Source: a virus. Taken from it: a stretch of DNA of 37,177 nt. The stretch lies in IMG/VR virus record IMGVR_UViG_3300030419_001668, positions 1-37,177 of that record, one strand, 5' to 3'. Positions 7,150 to 31,594 of the stretch are shown one piece after another. Under the pieces are notes generated by a model. That model saw only the letters and a program-made list of their open reading frames with translations, made no database searches and had not been told where the DNA came from. Made by a program: the position numbers and the translations under genes. Numbering within the stretch: position 1 is the first letter of the stretch; the number at the start of each line of letters is the position of its first letter.

Positions 7150-8616
7150 ATGGGTAAACTGATTGGCGAAGTTATGGAAGATCTGCAAGCGGCGCAAGTC
7201 GAGTGCAGTGAGAACAATGACTTTGAGAAACTACAGACCGTTATGGATGGCTACCAGCAATTACTGCTGGAAGCTCCACACGACCCCTACATCATATTTC
7301 AACTCGGTACAGCGCACCTACAGAAGCAAGAGTACGGCGTAGCGCTGGTCATCCTGCAACGGGTTCTTGACTACCTGCCGGATAACTCCCATGTGTGGAG
7401 TAACATCGGGTGCTGTTATCGCGCCATGCATATGCTTCCACAGGCAAGAGACTGTTTTATGAAGTCTCTGATGCTGGAGGAAAAGGCAGAAACCTACTCG
7501 AATCTTGCATCATCTTATGTCAATGAAGATGCGCCGGAGGAGGGATGGCCGTATGCCATTAAAGCGATGGAGCTAGAGCCTGACACAGCGAAGGCAAGAT
7601 GGAACGCGAGCCTGCTACAGCTAGAGATGCGGAACTGGAAGGAAGGCTTTGCGCTGTACGATGCAGGGTTTTTCTGCGGTGAGCGCGGACTGAGAAGCTA
7701 TAGCAATGATACGCCGGACAGCACGGACTGGTTTGACGGCAATCTGCAATCAGGCAAAACGCTGGCGCTCTGGGACGAGCAAGGGCTAGGGGATAGGCTA
7801 TTAGCGGCAGGGTTGCTCCCAAAGCTCGAAAAAGCGAATCTTGACATCATCTTAGAATGTCATCCGAGGCTAGAGGCTATCTACAAGCGTTCTTTCCCGT
7901 GGATCAACAAGATATATCCGACAGCCAAGAAATCGTTTATCGAGTGGCCGAATGACCATCCGGTAGATCAGAAATCTGCGGTATTTAGCCTTGCTAAGCA
8001 CTTCTGGAAAACAGAAGCGGATATGAGTACATGGTCTTATTTAAAGCCCAACCCAAAGCTACTCGAAATGTATCGCAAGCAGTTCGAGGCGCTTGGTCCG
8101 CCGCCCTACTATGGCCTTAGTTGGAAAGGTGGCGCACTGAAAACCAACACGCAATATCGGTCAATGAAGCTGGGCTGGTTCGAGAACGTGATAAAACGAG
8201 CGGGCGGAACGTGGATCTCTATGCAGTACCACGAGGATGCTAAAGAGAAAGTGGAACGGATGAGGGAGCAGACAGGGCTTCCGATATTCCATTGCGATGC
8301 GGCGCAGGAAATGGATTACGACCATACGCTGTCCGCTCTGGCGGCACTAGACCACACGATTACTTGCTGTAACACGGTAGTTCATACCTGTGGTGCGGCG
8401 GGTTTGAAATGCACGGTGCTTGTGCCAAAGAAACGGGCTTGGCGCTATCCGGCTGGCCCGTACTTTCCTTGGTATTCCGACGATATTGTCATGTTCCACC
8501 AGACCACAGATCAAGAGTGGAAAGAGGTTTTAGAGGTTTTAGGAGGGTCGCTCGAAAATGCGTACAATCATAATAGGTCACGGTCCGTCGATTCTAAGAC
8601 AGAAACTCGGCAGTGA
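7150..8616 (+). CDS. TPR-repeat glycosyltransferase-like protein (GT9-like C-terminal domain)
   Basis: Encodes 488 residues from ATG 7150, which has AGAGGA at 7135-7140; the frame is open from GTG 7108, but that codon is inside a hairpin. Residues about 45-167 are tandem TPR helices (for example WSNIGCCYRAMHMLPQARDC). The C-terminal half resembles the heptosyltransferase/GT9-type GT-B fold found fused to TPRs: WDEQGLGDRL (about 207-216), GLSWKGG, and the donor-site-like CCNTVVHTCGAAGLK (about 405-419). TPR-glycosyltransferase fusions are known in bacterial protein and cell-surface glycosylation. Substrate is unknown. It is the first of four overlapping sugar genes inside the virion operon. 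Its last 20 or so residues overlap the next gene by 59 bp and look like an unconserved tail. Confidence 0.75.
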   Translation: MGKLIGEVMEDLQAAQVECSENNDFEKLQTVMDGYQQLLLEAPHDPYIIFQLGTAHLQKQEYGVALVILQRVLDYLPDNSHVWSNIGCCYRAMHMLPQARDCFMKSLMLEEKAETYSNLASSYVNEDAPEEGWPYAIKAMELEPDTAKARWNASLLQLEMRNWKEGFALYDAGFFCGERGLRSYSNDTPDSTDWFDGNLQSGKTLALWDEQGLGDRLLAAGLLPKLEKANLDIILECHPRLEAIYKRSFPWINKIYPTAKKSFIEWPNDHPVDQKSAVFSLAKHFWKTEADMSTWSYLKPNPKLLEMYRKQFEALGPPPYYGLSWKGGALKTNTQYRSMKLGWFENVIKRAGGTWISMQYHEDAKEKVERMREQTGLPIFHCDAAQEMDYDHTLSALAALDHTITCCNTVVHTCGAAGLKCTVLVPKKRAWRYPAGPYFPWYSDDIVMFHQTTDQEWKEVLEVLGGSLENAYNHNRSRSVDSKTETRQ

Positions 8617-9208
8617 GATAGATCGCCACGATCAAATAATCAGGATGAAGCGCCATTCGGATTTGCCGAAGCTTCGCCCAGACTTGTACGGAAGCAGAAC
8701 AGACGTAGTGGTGTCATCCATGACGCTTGGACGAGTAATCATGGACGCTTGGGAAGGCGTAAAAGACTTCTGGCTGTTTGACGATACCCGTACAGAAAAT
8801 GACAGCGATAAAACATTACCGCAGGATGCTAACGTGTATTGCGATAGGGACGTATGTCGCTTCTGGCGCACTCAATATAGACGTTTGCGAAAAGACTATG
8901 TGAAGGCCGACAGTCAAAAGCTGATCGACGGCGTGTCCGACAACAAAGGACATTTGCACCCGTCTGCGGGAACCCATGCCATTTTGTATGCCATGCATAA
9001 AGCGAACCCAGAGGAGATACAACTACACGGGTTCGACAACATCCTTTCCGGCACTCACGACTGGTCGATTACACGGGGCCATGAGTATAAGGAATACCCA
9101 GACCACAACTGGCCCGCCGAGTCGCAGATGTTAGACCTACTGTGCAAGGTTTACGGATACCAGATGGAAAAAGGCGATACAGGGAGCGCTTTACTCAATG
9201 CAATTTAA
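8558..9208 (+). CDS. Sialyltransferase-like (GT29-type) protein
   Basis: Encodes 216 residues. The N terminus reads IIIGHGPSIL...IDRHDQIIRMK, matching the large sialyl-motif pattern (GnGPS...ID.hD.viR), followed by YGSRTDVVVSS. Around residues 133-161 HPSAGTHAILYAM...EIQLHGFD matches the small sialyl-motif pattern (psSG..ai..al..i.l.GFD). GT29 enzymes transfer sialic acid-type sugars from CMP donors; viral and bacterial members are divergent and the real donor may differ. It overlaps the previous gene by 59 bp (ribosome site AGGAGGG about 11 bp upstream) and the next by 11 bp, indicating coupled translation. Confidence 0.7.
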   Translation: MRTIIIGHGPSILRQKLGSEIDRHDQIIRMKRHSDLPKLRPDLYGSRTDVVVSSMTLGRVIMDAWEGVKDFWLFDDTRTENDSDKTLPQDANVYCDRDVCRFWRTQYRRLRKDYVKADSQKLIDGVSDNKGHLHPSAGTHAILYAMHKANPEEIQLHGFDNILSGTHDWSITRGHEYKEYPDHNWPAESQMLDLLCKVYGYQMEKGDTGSALLNAI

Positions 9209-10445
9209 GTTTGTAACGTCGATGAACCGCCGTATGTACGATGAATACGGCGAGATAATGATGGATACTTTTAGTCAGTTCTGGCCCGCAGGGGAGTTGC
9301 ACGTTTACACGGAGGATGAGTTCTTCCCATACAATAATTCACGCATTGTCTACCATGACTTAATGAAGGTGGATGGCATACAGAATTTCCTCGATGGCGT
9401 GTCCCACTTTCCAATATTTCACGGGCTTGTCAACGAGACGATCCAGTATAAATATAACGTCAATGCTTTTTGCCGGAAGGTATACGCACAGATCGATGCG
9501 GCGAAGGACTACAGAGGCTATCTCTTCTGGATAGACACAGACATCAAGACGTTCAGGCACATCCCAGCGGTGAAGCTCGAAAACTGGATGAGCGGCAACT
9601 TCATGGCCGTTATGAGGCGTAAAACATGGCATCTATGCAGCTCTTTTGTCGGCTGGGATTGCGCCCATGCTTTTGCAGACGGCTGGTTCAAGCATTACAA
9701 GAATATGTACGACTCCGGCGGCATATTCATGTTAAGCCAGTGGGACGACGCATTTGTCCTAGAGAAGACGCTAGAGGATTTGGTAGGCGTTAATGACATA
9801 GCGGAGAATGTGACTGGTGAGGGGCCGTATAACGTGTTTGACGGGGTGTTTGACAAGTATGCGACACACGACAAAGGGCCAACGAAACACGCAGTCAGGT
9901 ACATACATTTACTGGAAATCGTCAAACAGATGCAGCCGAAAAGAATACTGGAAGTCGGAACGTGGAACGGCGCGAGGGCAAGGCAAATGCTGGAGCTTAG
10001 TCCGAAGTCTGAGTATTTTGGGTTTGACCTGTTCGAGGAGGCGAACGACGAGACGGACAAGGCAGAGAAAAACGTGAAAAAACACTACAGTTTAGAAGAG
10101 GTGAAAGAGCGCCTAAACGATTTGAATGCAACTCTCTATCGCGGCGACAGCAAACAACAGCTAAAAAGATACCTGAAAGAGCATGGCGAAAATTCGGCAG
10201 ACTGTGTTTTTATCGACGGCGGGCATAGCGTGGAAACCATAAAAAGCGACTACAAGTACGCGAAAAAGATAGTGCAGAAAGGCGGAATTGTCATTTTCGA
10301 TGACTTCTATACGGAAATGCCGGAAGAAGAACTAAAACAGTATGGGGCGCAGGAAGTGCTGGAAGGCGAAGAATACTACCTGATGCCGACAAGGGACCAT
10401 GTAAAGGGAGGAGGCAGAGTGCAAATGGCGGTAGTCCAATGTTAA
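9198..10445 (+). CDS. Glycosyltransferase-methyltransferase fusion
   Basis: Encodes 415 residues in two domains. Residues about 1-210 look like a GT-A glycosyltransferase: FWIDTDIKTF (about 110-119) gives the metal-binding DxD, preceded by an FKFVTSMN start typical of nucleotide-sugar strands. Residues about 225-415 are a class I SAM-dependent methyltransferase: motif I is LEVGTWNGARA (251-261), the acidic residue after strand 2 is in FGFDLF, and CVFIDGGHSVETIKSDY (337-353) plus GGIVIFDDF match the Methyltransf_24 type often linked to glycans. It could add and methylate a sugar on the same chain. It overlaps both neighbours (11 and 7 bp). The fusion is visible; the substrate is unknown. Confidence 0.8.
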   Translation: MQFKFVTSMNRRMYDEYGEIMMDTFSQFWPAGELHVYTEDEFFPYNNSRIVYHDLMKVDGIQNFLDGVSHFPIFHGLVNETIQYKYNVNAFCRKVYAQIDAAKDYRGYLFWIDTDIKTFRHIPAVKLENWMSGNFMAVMRRKTWHLCSSFVGWDCAHAFADGWFKHYKNMYDSGGIFMLSQWDDAFVLEKTLEDLVGVNDIAENVTGEGPYNVFDGVFDKYATHDKGPTKHAVRYIHLLEIVKQMQPKRILEVGTWNGARARQMLELSPKSEYFGFDLFEEANDETDKAEKNVKKHYSLEEVKERLNDLNATLYRGDSKQQLKRYLKEHGENSADCVFIDGGHSVETIKSDYKYAKKIVQKGGIVIFDDFYTEMPEEELKQYGAQEVLEGEEYYLMPTRDHVKGGGRVQMAVVQC

Positions 10446-22942: not shown

Positions 22943-23234
22943 AATTTATTTATTTCGAATCGTTACCGAGTGTGTGACGGTGAATTTTGATAGTGATGGT
23001 TTTGATGGAGATGAAGATGGAGCCATCAGAGATATCATGGCCAAGCTTGGAGAAGATTACGTCGCAGCGCTGCACGGGGTCGATCTCGAAATAGATGACT
23101 CAGGGTGGAGTTGGACTGGCGCAATTCATGATGAAGGCGATGATGAGTTGGAGCATCCGATTTTCATTGCAGATGAAATGGAAGATGCAGATGATTTAGA
23201 AGAAGAGGAAGAAGAGGAAGAAGAAAATGTATGA
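22932..23234 (+). CDS. Acidic hypothetical protein with poly-Glu tail
   Basis: Encodes 100 residues. The N-terminal half is mixed beta/alpha (NRIYLFRIVTECVTVNFDSDG); the C-terminal third is extremely acidic, ending in nine consecutive Glu residues plus NV. The Glu codons form a purine repeat (GAAGAAGAG repeated, 23199-23226) that also provides the ribosome site for the ERF gene that starts inside its last codons. ATG 22932 has GGAG at 22921-22924. A DNA-mimic or SSB-like acidic tail is possible; this is inference only. Confidence 0.65.
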   Translation: MKNRIYLFRIVTECVTVNFDSDGFDGDEDGAIRDIMAKLGEDYVAALHGVDLEIDDSGWSWTGAIHDEGDDELEHPIFIADEMEDADDLEEEEEEEEENV

Positions 23235-24072
23235 AGATGAACCGATGACAGGTGGATATCAGAACGGTGGCGTTCCCGCGCCATACATTCCAGAAAACAA
23301 AACAGATTTGTCGCAGGTGAACGCAGAACTTTTTGCGGCGATGGCGAAAGCTCGAAAGTCGTTTGAGAAAACAGTGCCTGATAAGGACAATCCGTTTTTT
23401 TCCAGTGCGTACGTTTCGTTAGCAGGAATCCAAGATGCGACAGTCGAAGCGCTGTCTGCAAACGGGCTAGGGATCATGCAGTTCCCTACCACATCTGAGA
23501 ACTGCATCACCGTCAAGACTATTTTGTATCACGCAAGCGGAGCTTGTATTGAGTCCGTGATCTCTATTCCAGAAAACACCATGCAGAAAAAAGGTGTACT
23601 GGGAGTGCAGGAGATAGCGGGCGGCTTTACCTATCTGAAACGCTACGCACAAGAGGCGCTGTTAAACGTATCGAAAATGGAAGACGACGACGATGGAAAT
23701 TCTTTGCAAAGGGGTGGAACAATTTATGCGAACAAAAATAATGAGAAAGTTGGCCCTGCAAAGAAAACTGCGCCGAACAAAGAGCAGAAGTCTGAGGGAG
23801 CGAAAGCGAGTAATCCGCCAACTAAAAACCCAAATTCTTTTAATCCAAAGCAAGCTAATTTTCGAAAGCTGGAAGAGATGGTTAAGAAATTGGTGGAGGT
23901 CGAAGATTCACGGAAACTCAAGGACGAGTTAGAGAAATTTAACGAGCAAGCGAAGAGTTACAAAAAACACCACGGGGGTAATGAGGTGGACGACAAGAAG
24001 ATTGATGAGTGGAGAGCGGTGTCTGCCCGCATGAAAGTGAAACTCGAAAGGATGGCTCTTGATGCTTCTTGA
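23227..24072 (+). CDS. erf: ERF-family single-strand annealing recombinase
   Basis: Encodes 281 residues. Residues about 30-155 match the ERF domain: LFAAMAKARKSFEKTV, then DNPFFSSAYVSLAGIQDATVEAL, NGLGIMQFP, and EIAGGFTYLKRYAQEALLNV near 127-146. ERF proteins form rings that anneal complementary strands, promoting genome circularisation and recombination, as in P22. The C-terminal region (about 165-281) is a Lys/Ser/Pro linker followed by charged helices. The gene overlaps the previous one by 8 bp and the exonuclease gene downstream by 11 bp, the classical annealase-exonuclease pairing. Confidence 0.88.
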   Translation: MYEDEPMTGGYQNGGVPAPYIPENKTDLSQVNAELFAAMAKARKSFEKTVPDKDNPFFSSAYVSLAGIQDATVEALSANGLGIMQFPTTSENCITVKTILYHASGACIESVISIPENTMQKKGVLGVQEIAGGFTYLKRYAQEALLNVSKMEDDDDGNSLQRGGTIYANKNNEKVGPAKKTAPNKEQKSEGAKASNPPTKNPNSFNPKQANFRKLEEMVKKLVEVEDSRKLKDELEKFNEQAKSYKKHHGGNEVDDKKIDEWRAVSARMKVKLERMALDAS

Positions 24073-24985
24073 AATCAAATGTCCGATGAAAGGAAAGGAT
24101 AGCGATCTGTGGGAGCAGGTCGCTTCGGACAACATCCCCGACCACTACATGGCGCAGGTTCAGCATCAACTGATGGTGATGAAAAGTTACTTCGATGGGG
24201 AAGGAATAATTCACAATGTTGTGCAAGGCTCAAACGAGTGGAAGGAGTTGCGACGGAATTTGAAGATGGCAAGTGAAAGCCCAGCCGTATTAAATATTTC
24301 TCCTTTTCAAACGCCAGCAGAGCTGATGAAAATAAAGCAGGGAGAAGAAGAGGTCGTTGCAAACTTTGCAATGAAGAGAGGCTCTCGACTTGAGCCGATA
24401 GCAAGGTCGTTTGTTGAAGAAAAGTACGAGCGTCTGTTTAGTCCGGCTGTGGTGGAAGGCAAAGATTTATTCGGCGCATCCCTTGACGGCTGGGATGGAG
24501 GTAACGACCTAGTGTGCAGATTTTCTGTTTACTGCGAGTCTGGTGATTCGATAGAACTGGATGTGGAGTATGACGAGTTCTGGGTTTTGCAGATCAAGCG
24601 CGAATGGCAAAGCTTCTGGAGTTCCTATCTGGAAGGCGAGGAGTTGGAGGAAGAGACGCACGAGTTGATGGTTGGCGATGACTGGTTGCAGGTGGCGGAG
24701 GTCTGGCAAACGAAAAAGGCCGAGCTTGCGGAGCAGAAAAAAATAATGGAGGGAATCGAAAAACAGCTTAAAGCGGCGGAAGAATTGATGTCCGGCATGA
24801 GTGAAAAAAACGCTAGGGGCGCTGGCGTACAGATGACGAGATTTACAAGAAAAGGAAGAGTGGACTACAACAAATTTTTTAAGGAGAAAAAAGAAGAACT
24901 AGAAAAAGCAGGGATCACGGTAGACCTAGATGAATACCGTGGGGAAACAACACAACAAGTTAAATTCACAAAGGAGAATCAATGA
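24062..24985 (+). CDS. YqaJ/lambda-type exonuclease with permuted motif order
   Basis: Encodes 307 residues from ATG 24062 (AGGA at 24049-24052; a TTG at 24059 is possible). All elements of a YqaJ/phage-type PD-(D/E)XK nuclease are present, but out of order. The N terminus is the metal/catalytic strand LLEIKCP (E4, K6) followed by IPDHYMAQVQHQLMV (25-39). The usual N-terminal part then follows: QGSNEWKELRR (55-65), MASESPAVL, RGSRLEPIAR with E111, and FGASLDGWDGG with D142 (138-147). The normal C-terminal piece closes the domain (FSVYCESGD...YDEFWV...FW), then a coiled coil and a basic tail. The family order is W-R, E, D, ExK, QxQHQ. With ERF it would resect DNA ends 5' to 3'. Whether it is active, or a rearranged relic, cannot be told; the frame is intact. 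Confidence 0.8.
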   Translation: MLLEIKCPMKGKDSDLWEQVASDNIPDHYMAQVQHQLMVMKSYFDGEGIIHNVVQGSNEWKELRRNLKMASESPAVLNISPFQTPAELMKIKQGEEEVVANFAMKRGSRLEPIARSFVEEKYERLFSPAVVEGKDLFGASLDGWDGGNDLVCRFSVYCESGDSIELDVEYDEFWVLQIKREWQSFWSSYLEGEELEEETHELMVGDDWLQVAEVWQTKKAELAEQKKIMEGIEKQLKAAEELMSGMSEKNARGAGVQMTRFTRKGRVDYNKFFKEKKEELEKAGITVDLDEYRGETTQQVKFTKENQ

Positions 24986-25396: not shown

Positions 25397-25589
25397 AGTG
25401 TTAGCGATGCTTAGAAAAGGCCCAGTGTCAAACAAAGACGCATACCCCAAAGGGATATACCGTCTTGGCGCTAGGGTCTATGACCTGAGAAAAATGGGTT
25501 TTGACATCAAGACGGTGAATAGAACAGGGAGGAACAAACGTAACAGAAAAGTATCGTGGGCCTCCTATGTGCTGGTCTCGTCGCCGTGA
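25377..25589 (+). CDS. Winged-helix DNA-binding protein (HTH_39-like)
   Basis: Encodes 70 residues. The pattern TAEVLAMLRKGPVSNKDAYP, then GIYRLGARVYDLRKMGFDIKT fits the small phage helix-turn-helix family with the core 'rLaarIyDLRk.Gy.I'. It probably binds DNA as a regulator or accessory factor. ATG 25377 has a strong ribosome site (CAGGAGG, 25363-25369). It is a candidate regulator for the early promoters. Its stop overlaps the GTG of the next gene (GTGA). Confidence 0.75.
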   Translation: MYPQTAEVLAMLRKGPVSNKDAYPKGIYRLGARVYDLRKMGFDIKTVNRTGRNKRNRKVSWASYVLVSSP

Positions 25590-26696: not shown

Positions 26697-26988
26697 TGCG
26701 TTGACAAGTTTGGTCGGGCATATGTTAGATGCCGACAAGATAAAAATGAAAGAGGCGAAAGCGAAGTGGATCGACTCTAAGAAAAAAGAGACTTACGCGA
26801 CAAGGTGCTACTCGTTGCTCGAAGAGAAAGGGCCGATGACCCCAGATGAATGTGTAAAATATTTTGAGAAAAATCCGTTCCGAAACAAGGATGAAAAGTT
26901 GTTGGTGCGGCAGGCGTTAGCGAAGCTCGCAACGCGAGGAGTGATCAGAAAACTAGGCCACGGGTTGTACGATGTCGAGCGCTCGTAA
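26689..26988 (+). CDS. Winged-helix-like protein
   Basis: Encodes 99 residues. After a basic N-terminal helix (about 20-35), residues about 40-96 form a winged-helix pattern: YSLLEEKGPMTPDECVKYFEK, then LVRQALAKLATRGVIRKLGHGLYDV. The 'L..rG.I.r.g.g.Y' ending is the wing of many phage DNA-binding proteins. It overlaps genes on both sides (8 and 17 bp). It is probably a regulator or replication initiator partner of the preceding gene. Confidence 0.6.
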   Translation: MASALTSLVGHMLDADKIKMKEAKAKWIDSKKKETYATRCYSLLEEKGPMTPDECVKYFEKNPFRNKDEKLLVRQALAKLATRGVIRKLGHGLYDVERS

Positions 26989-27346
26989 ATTCATATTGCG
27001 TTCAGGCGCGATCAAGGCTCGGTGTCTTGAGATAATTCAGTCGTTACCGGAGAAACCGATTTACGAAATCTCGATTAAGAAACACGTTAAAGGAGGAAGC
27101 ACGGAGAGCAAAAATTTCTACCGTCTTTGCGTCAGGATTATTGCAAACGAATTGGGATACGACCCCGAAGAGATGCATCAGGCGCTCAAGAAAATGTATT
27201 TGAGTCCGAAAATCGTGAACATCAACGGCAGGGACGTTGAGATAACGCCTAGCACGACGGAGATGAATCAAGAAGAGGTTTCAGCATACACTGATAGAGT
27301 TTTACAATTTGCGGCAGAGCAGGGGATAGAAATTGGCAGGAATTAA
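26972..27346 (+). CDS. NinB/Orf-like recombination-associated protein
   Basis: Encodes 124 residues. ESKNFYRLCVRIIANELGYDPEEMH, then ALKKMYLSPK, and ITPSTTEMNQEEVSAYTDRVLQFAAE...GIEIG match a phage family I associate with NinB/Orf recombination mediators (ends in a 'STt.l...ef..y...v...a.e.Gi.ip' pattern). NinB binds ssDNA and helps load annealases. It is followed by a NinG-like gene, the same order as in lambdoid nin regions. The family call is by pattern memory, so moderate. Confidence 0.55.
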   Translation: MSSARKFILRSGAIKARCLEIIQSLPEKPIYEISIKKHVKGGSTESKNFYRLCVRIIANELGYDPEEMHQALKKMYLSPKIVNINGRDVEITPSTTEMNQEEVSAYTDRVLQFAAEQGIEIGRN

Positions 27347-27776
27347 AATCACAGCAGCAGACAAATGGTTCAGCCTCGCGATACGCGAAGCTAATAACTG
27401 GGTCTGTGAATCGTCAGGGGTGATCGATGAGCTTGGGCGGAGCCAAGGTTCGAGCAGAGGAATGGAGTGCTGTCACATTTTCGGGAGACGCTCTCGGAAT
27501 ACAAGATGGTATCCTCTAAATGCTTTTTGTCTGACGACAGCACAACACTTTTACTTCACTGAAAGGCCGTTGGAGTTTACGGATTTTGTAAAACAAAAAC
27601 TCGGTGACGGCGCTTACGAAATATTGCTAGAGCGCTCCCGTGATGTTTATATAAAATACACAAAGGAGGAGCGCGACAAGATAATCCCTAAACACTACCG
27701 AGATGAGTATCGCCGGATGCGAGCGTTAAGGAAGGAAGGAGAGGCAGGGCCGATCAAGTTGATTAGCTATGACTGA
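27333..27776 (+). CDS. NinG/HNH-like nuclease with degenerate zinc ligands
   Basis: Encodes 147 residues from TTG 27333 (AGGGG at 27321-27325). KWFSLAIREANNWVCESSG, MECCHIFGRRSRNTRWYPLNAFCL and FTERPLEFTDFVKQKLG match phage NinG/HNH-like proteins, which usually read CxxCG...eCcHi.gRr...RW.p.N...LCxxHH..FTe.P..F. Here the second Cys of the first pair is Ser (CESS), and the later LCxxHH block is LTTAQH. So at least two expected metal ligands are changed. It may be inactive as a nuclease or use another site. Overlaps both neighbours. Confidence 0.6.
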   Translation: MAGIKITAADKWFSLAIREANNWVCESSGVIDELGRSQGSSRGMECCHIFGRRSRNTRWYPLNAFCLTTAQHFYFTERPLEFTDFVKQKLGDGAYEILLERSRDVYIKYTKEERDKIIPKHYRDEYRRMRALRKEGEAGPIKLISYD

Positions 27777-27966
27777 GAAAATCGACCAAGATCGTCTGGA
27801 CGAGTTGTATAATCTGGAGGTGAGGCGCAGGGAGAAGGAAGGCGAAACATTGTTGAAGTTTGTGTCTACGAAAGCGCTGGAAAAAGAGTTGCGGCGCAGG
27901 ACTAAAAAAGCGAGTACAATCGAAAAATGGCCGACACAGCAAAATTTTTCACTAGAGCCGAATTGA
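27769..27966 (+). CDS. Small charged hypothetical protein
   Basis: Encodes 65 residues, almost entirely charged helix (QDRLDELYNLEVRRREKEGE, then KALEKELRRRTKK). It starts inside the last codons of the NinG-like gene and its 3' end overlaps the endolysin by 40 bp. There is no family I know. The tight overlap at both ends supports translation, though the tail overlapping the peptidase gene may not be conserved. Confidence 0.5.
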   Translation: MTEKIDQDRLDELYNLEVRRREKEGETLLKFVSTKALEKELRRRTKKASTIEKWPTQQNFSLEPN

Positions 27967-28307
27967 GTTGTTCGCACTGCGGCAAGTGCGAAATGGACCA
28001 GTCATTTCTGGACTTGATAGACAGGCTTCGAACTGCTTACGACAAACCAATGTCGCTAAGCTCAGCGTACAGATGCGTAGAGCATCCCGTAGAAGTGAAG
28101 AAAAACAAAAGAGGCACACACACCTATGGCCGAGCAGTGGATGTCCGTGTCAGCACTGGTGAGGCGTTCAAGCTGTTAGAAATTATTTTAACACTGCCAT
28201 TTTCTGGTGTGGGCTTCAGCCAAAAGGGAGACCACAGCACAAGGTTCATTCACATTGATGACCTGACAGGTCCAGACTTTGTGAGGCCGACAATTTGGAG
28301 CTATTGA
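27927..28307 (+). CDS. Endolysin, M15-type peptidase
   Basis: Encodes 126 residues, the normal size for a single-domain M15_3 peptidase. FTRAELSCSHCG and SSAYRCVEHPVE lead to HTYGRAVDV, with H65 and D72 as zinc ligands, and FIHIDD with H109-x-D111 as the remaining ligand/catalytic pair. These enzymes cut peptidoglycan cross-bridges or L-Ala-D-Glu bonds. No signal peptide is visible, so export needs the holin; the membrane genes that follow immediately fit this. Neighbours: the EF-hand membrane protein starts 2 bp downstream. Confidence 0.87.
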   Translation: MADTAKFFTRAELSCSHCGKCEMDQSFLDLIDRLRTAYDKPMSLSSAYRCVEHPVEVKKNKRGTHTYGRAVDVRVSTGEAFKLLEIILTLPFSGVGFSQKGDHSTRFIHIDDLTGPDFVRPTIWSY

Positions 28308-30700: not shown

Positions 30701-31594
30701 ATGGCTAAATCAGCAAAAGAAACTTACGAAGAAATCACCAATACCATTCTAGCCCACATGGAAGAGGCTCAAGAAAAGGGAACGCAGTTTACGTTGCCCT
30801 TCGCGCAAGCTGGCGGGTTAGCGGTAAACGCTGAGACCAAAAAACCGTATCAGGGGATCAACCAGTTAATCTTGGGACTGCACGGCCAACGCTACTACGG
30901 AACTTACAGAACTTGGCAACGTCTTGACGCGCAAGTACGCAAGGATGAGAAAGGGATAGTCATAACGAAATTCGATATGATTAAAGAAAAGAATCCAGAA
31001 GATCCGGCGAACCCGCAGTATTTTCCTTTGCTGAAACGTCATGTGGTTTTCGGCGCGGACCAAGTGGACGGCTGGGATGCTCCGGCGGAAGAAACCGATA
31101 GCGTAGCTACCGAGCAGGAAGTCAACGAGAATGTAGAAAGCTGGGTTGCAGACACCAAGGCGGACATCTGCCATAGCCCATCTGCGAGAGCTTACTATCA
31201 GCCAAGCTTGGATGCTATCCATATGCCAAACAGAGAGTTGTTTCGCGCCACAGCTACATCGAGCGCGACAGAGACTTACTACTCGACTCTACTGCACGAG
31301 CTAACCCACTGGACTGGTTCTGCGAAGCGATTGAACAGACTCAAGGATAGTCGCTTTGGGGACAAGGATTATGCGCTGGAGGAGTTAGTAGCAGAGTTAG
31401 GCGCGGCGTATCTATGTGCAGGTCTGGGTGTTTCGGTTGCTGTTAGAGAGGACCACGCCCATTACCTCAATAGCTGGATCAAAGCCTTGAAGAATGACAA
31501 GAAGGCTATCTTCAAAGCGGCGAGCGCGGCCCAGAAAGCCGTTAACTGGCTAAACGATGCTGTGGACAACGAAAGGAAAGAGGAGGCCGCATAG
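30701..31594 (+). CDS. ardC: ArdC-like antirestriction/zincin protein
   Basis: Encodes 297 residues. Residues about 5-130 match the ArdC N-terminal ssDNA-binding domain (YEEITNTILAHMEEA, then PYQGINQLILGL and YGTYRTWQRLDAQVRK, KGIVITKFD). Residues about 150-290 are a zincin-like metallopeptidase domain with HELTHWTG (H199, E200, H203) and a downstream acidic ligand in EELVAELGAAYL. ArdC-type proteins are part of plasmid and phage polyvalent proteins; they protect incoming DNA from restriction. It shares the ribosome signature CGGAGACGACTAAC with the gene before it. Recognition is strong; the biological target is inferred. Confidence 0.85.
   Translation: MAKSAKETYEEITNTILAHMEEAQEKGTQFTLPFAQAGGLAVNAETKKPYQGINQLILGLHGQRYYGTYRTWQRLDAQVRKDEKGIVITKFDMIKEKNPEDPANPQYFPLLKRHVVFGADQVDGWDAPAEETDSVATEQEVNENVESWVADTKADICHSPSARAYYQPSLDAIHMPNRELFRATATSSATETYYSTLLHELTHWTGSAKRLNRLKDSRFGDKDYALEELVAELGAAYLCAGLGVSVAVREDHAHYLNSWIKALKNDKKAIFKAASAAQKAVNWLNDAVDNERKEEAA

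Follow-up and report, generated by a model that had tools for sequence, protein, structure and literature searches.

The exonuclease gene and its surroundings

The window (the whole stretch of viral DNA analyzed, 37,177 bases) comes from a P22-like phage that encodes a terminase and a portal of the P22 type and has a match to a capsid protein. It carries a gene for an exonuclease of the YqaJ/lambda-exonuclease type, the start of which is overlapped by 11 nt by a gene for an Erf-type single-strand annealing protein (Table 1). The exonuclease gene thus lies next to an annealing-protein gene, as in two-component phage recombinases, and the natural reading of this neighborhood is an exonuclease/annealing pair of the standard type. 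Genes resembling NinB and NinG follow downstream.

Other parts of the window hold further genes of note. An ORF at 8558-9208 has a match to the Pfam GT29 sialyltransferase family (29.4 bits, cut-off 23) and is followed at 9198-10445 by a Methyltransf_24 protein; both are in the phage structural region and may be a glycan-modifying pair. An ArdC-type anti-restriction protein (ArdcN plus a zincin-like metallopeptidase; phrog_7245) is encoded at 30701-31594, and a Peptidase M15-type protein, likely an endolysin, at 27927-28307, where it adjoins small downstream ORFs.

Table 1. Features of the recombination region, in window coordinates
Feature	Position	Strand	Details
Erf-type single-strand annealing protein gene	23227..24072	+	PF04404, phrog_2324
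Segment-swapped YqaJ/lambda-exonuclease-type gene	24062..24985	+	307 aa, order B-A-C
Block B: ExK strand (E4, K6) and QxQHQ helix	24062..24178	+	canonical family positions 103-141
Joint 2 (B to A), peptide MKSYFDGEG	24179..24205	+	modeled helix 27-47 running into strand 49-51
Block A: W60, R64, E111 (motif I), D142 (motif II)	24206..24496	+	canonical residues 1-97
Joint 3 (A to C): SLDG-WDGGNDL-VCRFSVY	24488..24514	+	BLAST blocks, structure model
Block C: last two core strands, helix, C-terminal region	24506..24982	+	alignment with canonical relatives
NinB (Orf)-like gene	26972..27346	+	weak: 20.6 bits, below Pfam cut-off 23.8
NinG/Rap-like junction endonuclease gene	27333..27776	+	phrog_5034, E 2.5e-11

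Order of the segments in the exonuclease

The protein as a whole matches PF09588 (E 5.3e-16, 59.7 bits, cut-off 22), which places it in the YqaJ family, and this family was found only once in the whole record. When the profile was run against the 37,177 bases, the match came in two pieces: positions 24065-24178 correspond to model positions 108-146 (29.3 bits) and positions 24236-24490 to model positions 1-96 (32 bits). The B-A-C order is real because these pieces match in swapped order, each separately exceeding the threshold of 22 bits; it is a true feature of the sequence, neither a chance pattern nor an impression drawn from weak motifs. A block-wise BLAST comparison with canonical YqaJ proteins gave the same picture, with residues 1-47 aligning to canonical positions ~110-147, residues 50-143 to 1-101, and the C-terminal part, residues 149-307, to ~154-305. 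The order B-A-C, as against the A-B-C of the family, had been proposed in the initial annotation, and both the block BLAST and the swapped PF09588 pieces bear it out.

The catalytic set is present: E111 of motif I, D142 of motif II, E4 and K6 of motif III, and the QxQHQ helix (Q32-Q36). These four residues, together with W60 and R64, lie at the positions first given for them. Along the chain, the motifs run III-IV-I-II instead of the I-II-III-IV of the family. Joint 3 lacks the ExK strand and the QxQHQ helix, and block C ends in DLDEYRG...VKFT, like the canonical relatives. As had been claimed, the frame is kept at the joints: the ORF is open across both, with 307 codons on the plus strand and no internal stop. 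On the evidence of these alignments, membership in the YqaJ family holds by descent, and the colinear architecture does not.

The name "circularly permuted", under which the protein was first described, does not fit the whole of it. A cyclic rotation of A-B-C would give BCA or CAB, and BAC is not a circular permutation because block C stays at the C-terminus. The change is a non-cyclic swap of two neighboring segments; a cyclic permutation describes its A-B half alone.

Predicted fold

For AlphaFold2, the alignment was built from unchanged, unpaired fragments of relatives, in sets chosen so that MAFFT put each on its own block. With a well-registered alignment, the mean pLDDT was 86.4 and the pTM 0.62, with the five models between 84 and 86; a poorly registered alignment gave a pLDDT of 52, so the outcome depends on the alignment register. 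The models from the first, badly registered alignments are meaningless and were discarded. Low confidence is confined to residues 194-211, and both joints are confident, with pLDDT blocks of 92-97 over residues 31-60, which span joint 2.

The modeled N-terminal elements are the ExK strand (2-6), a helix (27-47) that continues through the joint peptide, and a strand at 49-51. They are followed by a helix at 102-122, which carries E111, and by strands at 127-132, 137-144 (with D142), 151-157, and 163-169. Since block B contains only one strand, the strand that DSSP assigns at 2-6 must be paired with A or C; in the model, the ExK strand is thus hydrogen-bonded in the sheet with strands of other blocks. 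The core elements are all present in the model at high confidence.

Foldseek placed 3sz4, 3syy, 6m9k, and 3sm4 at the top of its matches to the predicted structure, with E-values down to 1.7e-5; the best solved match was LHK-Exo (3sz4, E 1.7e-5, TM 0.58 by target length), followed by lambda exonuclease. Foldseek depends on chain order, and its matches therefore mainly score A and C. When the sequence of the window protein itself was searched against solved structures, there was no match; a profile of the canonical family does reach LHK-Exo and lambda exonuclease. The model and the Foldseek matches support the earlier suggestion of a plausibly functional PD-(D/E)XK fold.

Comparison with canonical relatives

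The nearest canonical family of all three blocks is a set of YqaJ-like exonucleases of ~284 aa (PF09588; loci L180-L188) from Accumulibacter, Burkholderiales, Dechloromonas, and a marine gammaproteobacterium. All of their blocks align over the full length with the window protein, including the C-terminal ...DYK..DL..YRGK motif, but in every one the order is A-B-C. LHK-Exo (3syy, 3sz4) and lambda exonuclease (1avq, 3sm4, 6m9k) share the fold and the active-site residues, as found by profile and structure search; they differ in their canonical order and in their length of ~200-230 aa, without the long C-terminal extension. An order-dependent match to these two covers the other blocks and is unable to place B.

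With profiles of the A and B blocks run in every frame, the order A-B was found in 267 fetched loci (fewer unique contigs, some having been fetched more than once), which came from three IMG/VR scans, one GTDB scan, and phage and plasmid records. The order B-A was found in seven, all from the virus analyzed here: these fetches amount to the window and a second contig from IMG/VR, IMGVR_UViG_3300029319_000709, which is identical over the gene and is the only homolog found to share the B-A order. Three surveys of genomes, which together comprised 1,167 partly overlapping genome searches, showed the canonical order wherever an order could be discerned, and no diverged homolog with the B-A-C order was found among the loci and surveys examined. 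Two scans with junction-type patterns (QHQLMV followed by E-W at the swapped distance, with both His codons) gave 29 unrelated matches, the sole match to a pattern of the joint-2 peptide was the twin contig, and relatives sought via Erf again gave that contig alone. No permuted YqaJ exonuclease was found in the papers searched, and a published precedent may exist elsewhere.

This confinement of the B-A-C order to one near-clonal virus population, with no sister sequence among the loci examined, raises the alternative of a rearrangement that is genuine but of recent date, with an inactive product. The gene would then be decaying in a phage able to do without this exonuclease, for example by means of host or other nucleases. 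The open frame is in itself compatible with such decay, in that two in-frame joints are expected in about 1 in 9 random rearrangements, without selection. However, the 307 codons are free of stops, all the catalytic residues are retained, the start of the gene still overlaps the stop of Erf, and the Erf and NinG genes are intact; moreover, the fold is predicted with confidence and is continuous through the joints. We consider decay unlikely, and the segment-swapped exonuclease is probably functional, as judged from the model.

Ancestry of the blocks

Identity to the nearest canonical family reaches 46% for A, 32% for C, and 66% for B, although, B being only 38 residues long, its value is not significantly high. 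The residues invariant in the family are kept at 13 of 16 positions in B, 32 of 58 in A, and 23 of 50 in C. The peptide at joint 2, MKSYFDGEGIIH, resembles the canonical start of C, VFDGTEGLLLEV, a likeness matched by 1-3 of the ~1,900 segments of equal length in the window. Within positions 24179-24211, SYFDGEGII is similar to the hairpin that opens canonical C, though block C also lies downstream. To judge from the sequence, the joint-2 peptide could have been left by a duplication with subsequent deletions, or could be due to chance.

Another possibility is a chimera, in which B, along with a piece from the beginning of C, would derive from a second copy of the exonuclease obtained by tandem duplication or acquisition; the first copy would then have lost A and the second B, and the product might still work. 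The relative closeness of B to the canonical family, somewhat greater than the canonical outgroups would lead one to expect, would fit such an origin, as would the C-like SYFDGEGII, which gives the impression of a partial duplication of C. Nevertheless, the three blocks have one nearest family in common, no trace of a duplication was found at the DNA level, and identity in B also exceeds that in A by up to ~15 points in other, canonical outgroups. A chimera is, on balance, improbable.

As for the rearrangement itself, copies of GATGG near the joints had been taken as a weak hint of a short-homology event. The copies are there, but as a signal they are weak: the window has 73 of them, nine within the 1.76 kb of 23227-24985, and ~4% of random triples of zones have some 5-mer in common. 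With a crossover at this motif, moreover, the ancestral A|B junction would have been shifted out of frame and would contain a stop, and GATGG was rejected as the recombination joint.

Reality of the joints

The twin contig differs from the window by three mismatches over 10,462 aligned bases. These lie outside the gene, at 25412, 25421, and 25430. All three are within the final 26 bases of the twin contig, which ends (25412-25437) with mismatches nine bases apart, as if its assembly had broken at strain variation. The two contigs may come from related samples and are therefore not fully independent. Direct repeats in 23900-24700 were sought as a source of misassembly; none was longer than 8 nt if exact or, in the joint regions, than 11 nt with one mismatch (91%), and misassembly via repeats was rejected, those found being too short to mislead an assembler. 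That the true genome is A-B-C, with reads wrongly joined in the contig, is very improbable: although the joints are seen in assembled contigs rather than in raw reads, and the near-identical second contig may stem from a related sample or pipeline, the same joints occur in both contigs, no repeat of assembler size lies at them, the frame is kept across both, and both are modeled with confidence. The rearrangement is almost certainly real.

A possible mechanism

In the PD-(D/E)XK fold, the end of strand 2, the start of strand 3, the end of the motif-IV helix, and the start of strand 4 share one edge of the sheet. If the hairpin between strands 2 and 3 and the loop between the helix and strand 4 are cut, a new connection from strand 2 to strand 4 therefore has only the width of a single strand to cross. 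The rearrangement would have taken block B, that is, core strand 3 with ExK and the motif-IV helix, out of the interior of the chain, where it separates A from C, and placed it at the N-terminus, with the polypeptide re-wiring the sheet and leaving its shape unchanged. All three joints appear to be at one end of the sheet, in loops where re-wiring is plausible. Strand 2 (D142) would pass directly to strand 4, over the width of one strand, via the linker WDGGNDL; strand 3 (E4/K6) would be supplied by the N-terminus, and its helix, continued, would reach the N-terminus of A.

Lambda exonuclease binds its metal ion through Asp119 and Glu129 and recognizes the DNA end through a conserved arginine (PMC3118119). 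The counterparts of these residues by alignment are D142, E4, and R64, and K6 corresponds to lambda K131, a mutant of which has been crystallized (3sm4). By homology, R64 would be the 5'-phosphate site. The rebuilt site, E111-D142-E4-K6, would bind Mg2+ and degrade the 5' ends of linear phage DNA, and the resulting 3' tails would be annealed by the adjacent Erf protein. We consider it likely that the protein is a working 5'-3' dsDNA exonuclease of the YqaJ/lambda-exonuclease family, with block B moved to the N-terminus. With a little less assurance, it may be taken as a PD-(D/E)XK exonuclease that underwent a non-cyclic permutation in nature, kept its catalytic activity, and became fixed in a phage recombination module.

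Significance for the exonuclease family

To our knowledge, natural non-cyclic permutations in which the parent family is plain from sequence are hardly known. In the literature, such permutations have only been called possible in nature, and whether nature makes them was posed as a question; the cases described were the artificial Arc repressor and AML1/CBF compared with riboflavin synthase (PMC2096629). These cases and the window protein have in common that segments are reordered beyond circular permutation with the shape retained, but the former are an engineered protein and a structural similarity over 42 residues, whereas the blocks of the window protein show plain sequence homology. In certain PD-(D/E)XK families, active-site residues have migrated (PMC1913061), so that there, too, the active site is built from unusual positions in the chain; the difference is that single residues migrate between motifs in those families, whereas here a whole strand-helix unit has moved.

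The result is computational and from a single lineage, and what it describes is a rearranged form of a known enzyme family. Proteins of this kind are broken into two partial matches by order-dependent searches. Because the permuted protein can be aligned with its parent family one block at a time, within a nuclease fold that has been studied in depth, the pair is a direct test system for how far the chain order of an enzyme can be re-wired with its active site surviving. It also bears on how phage recombination modules produce such rearrangements.
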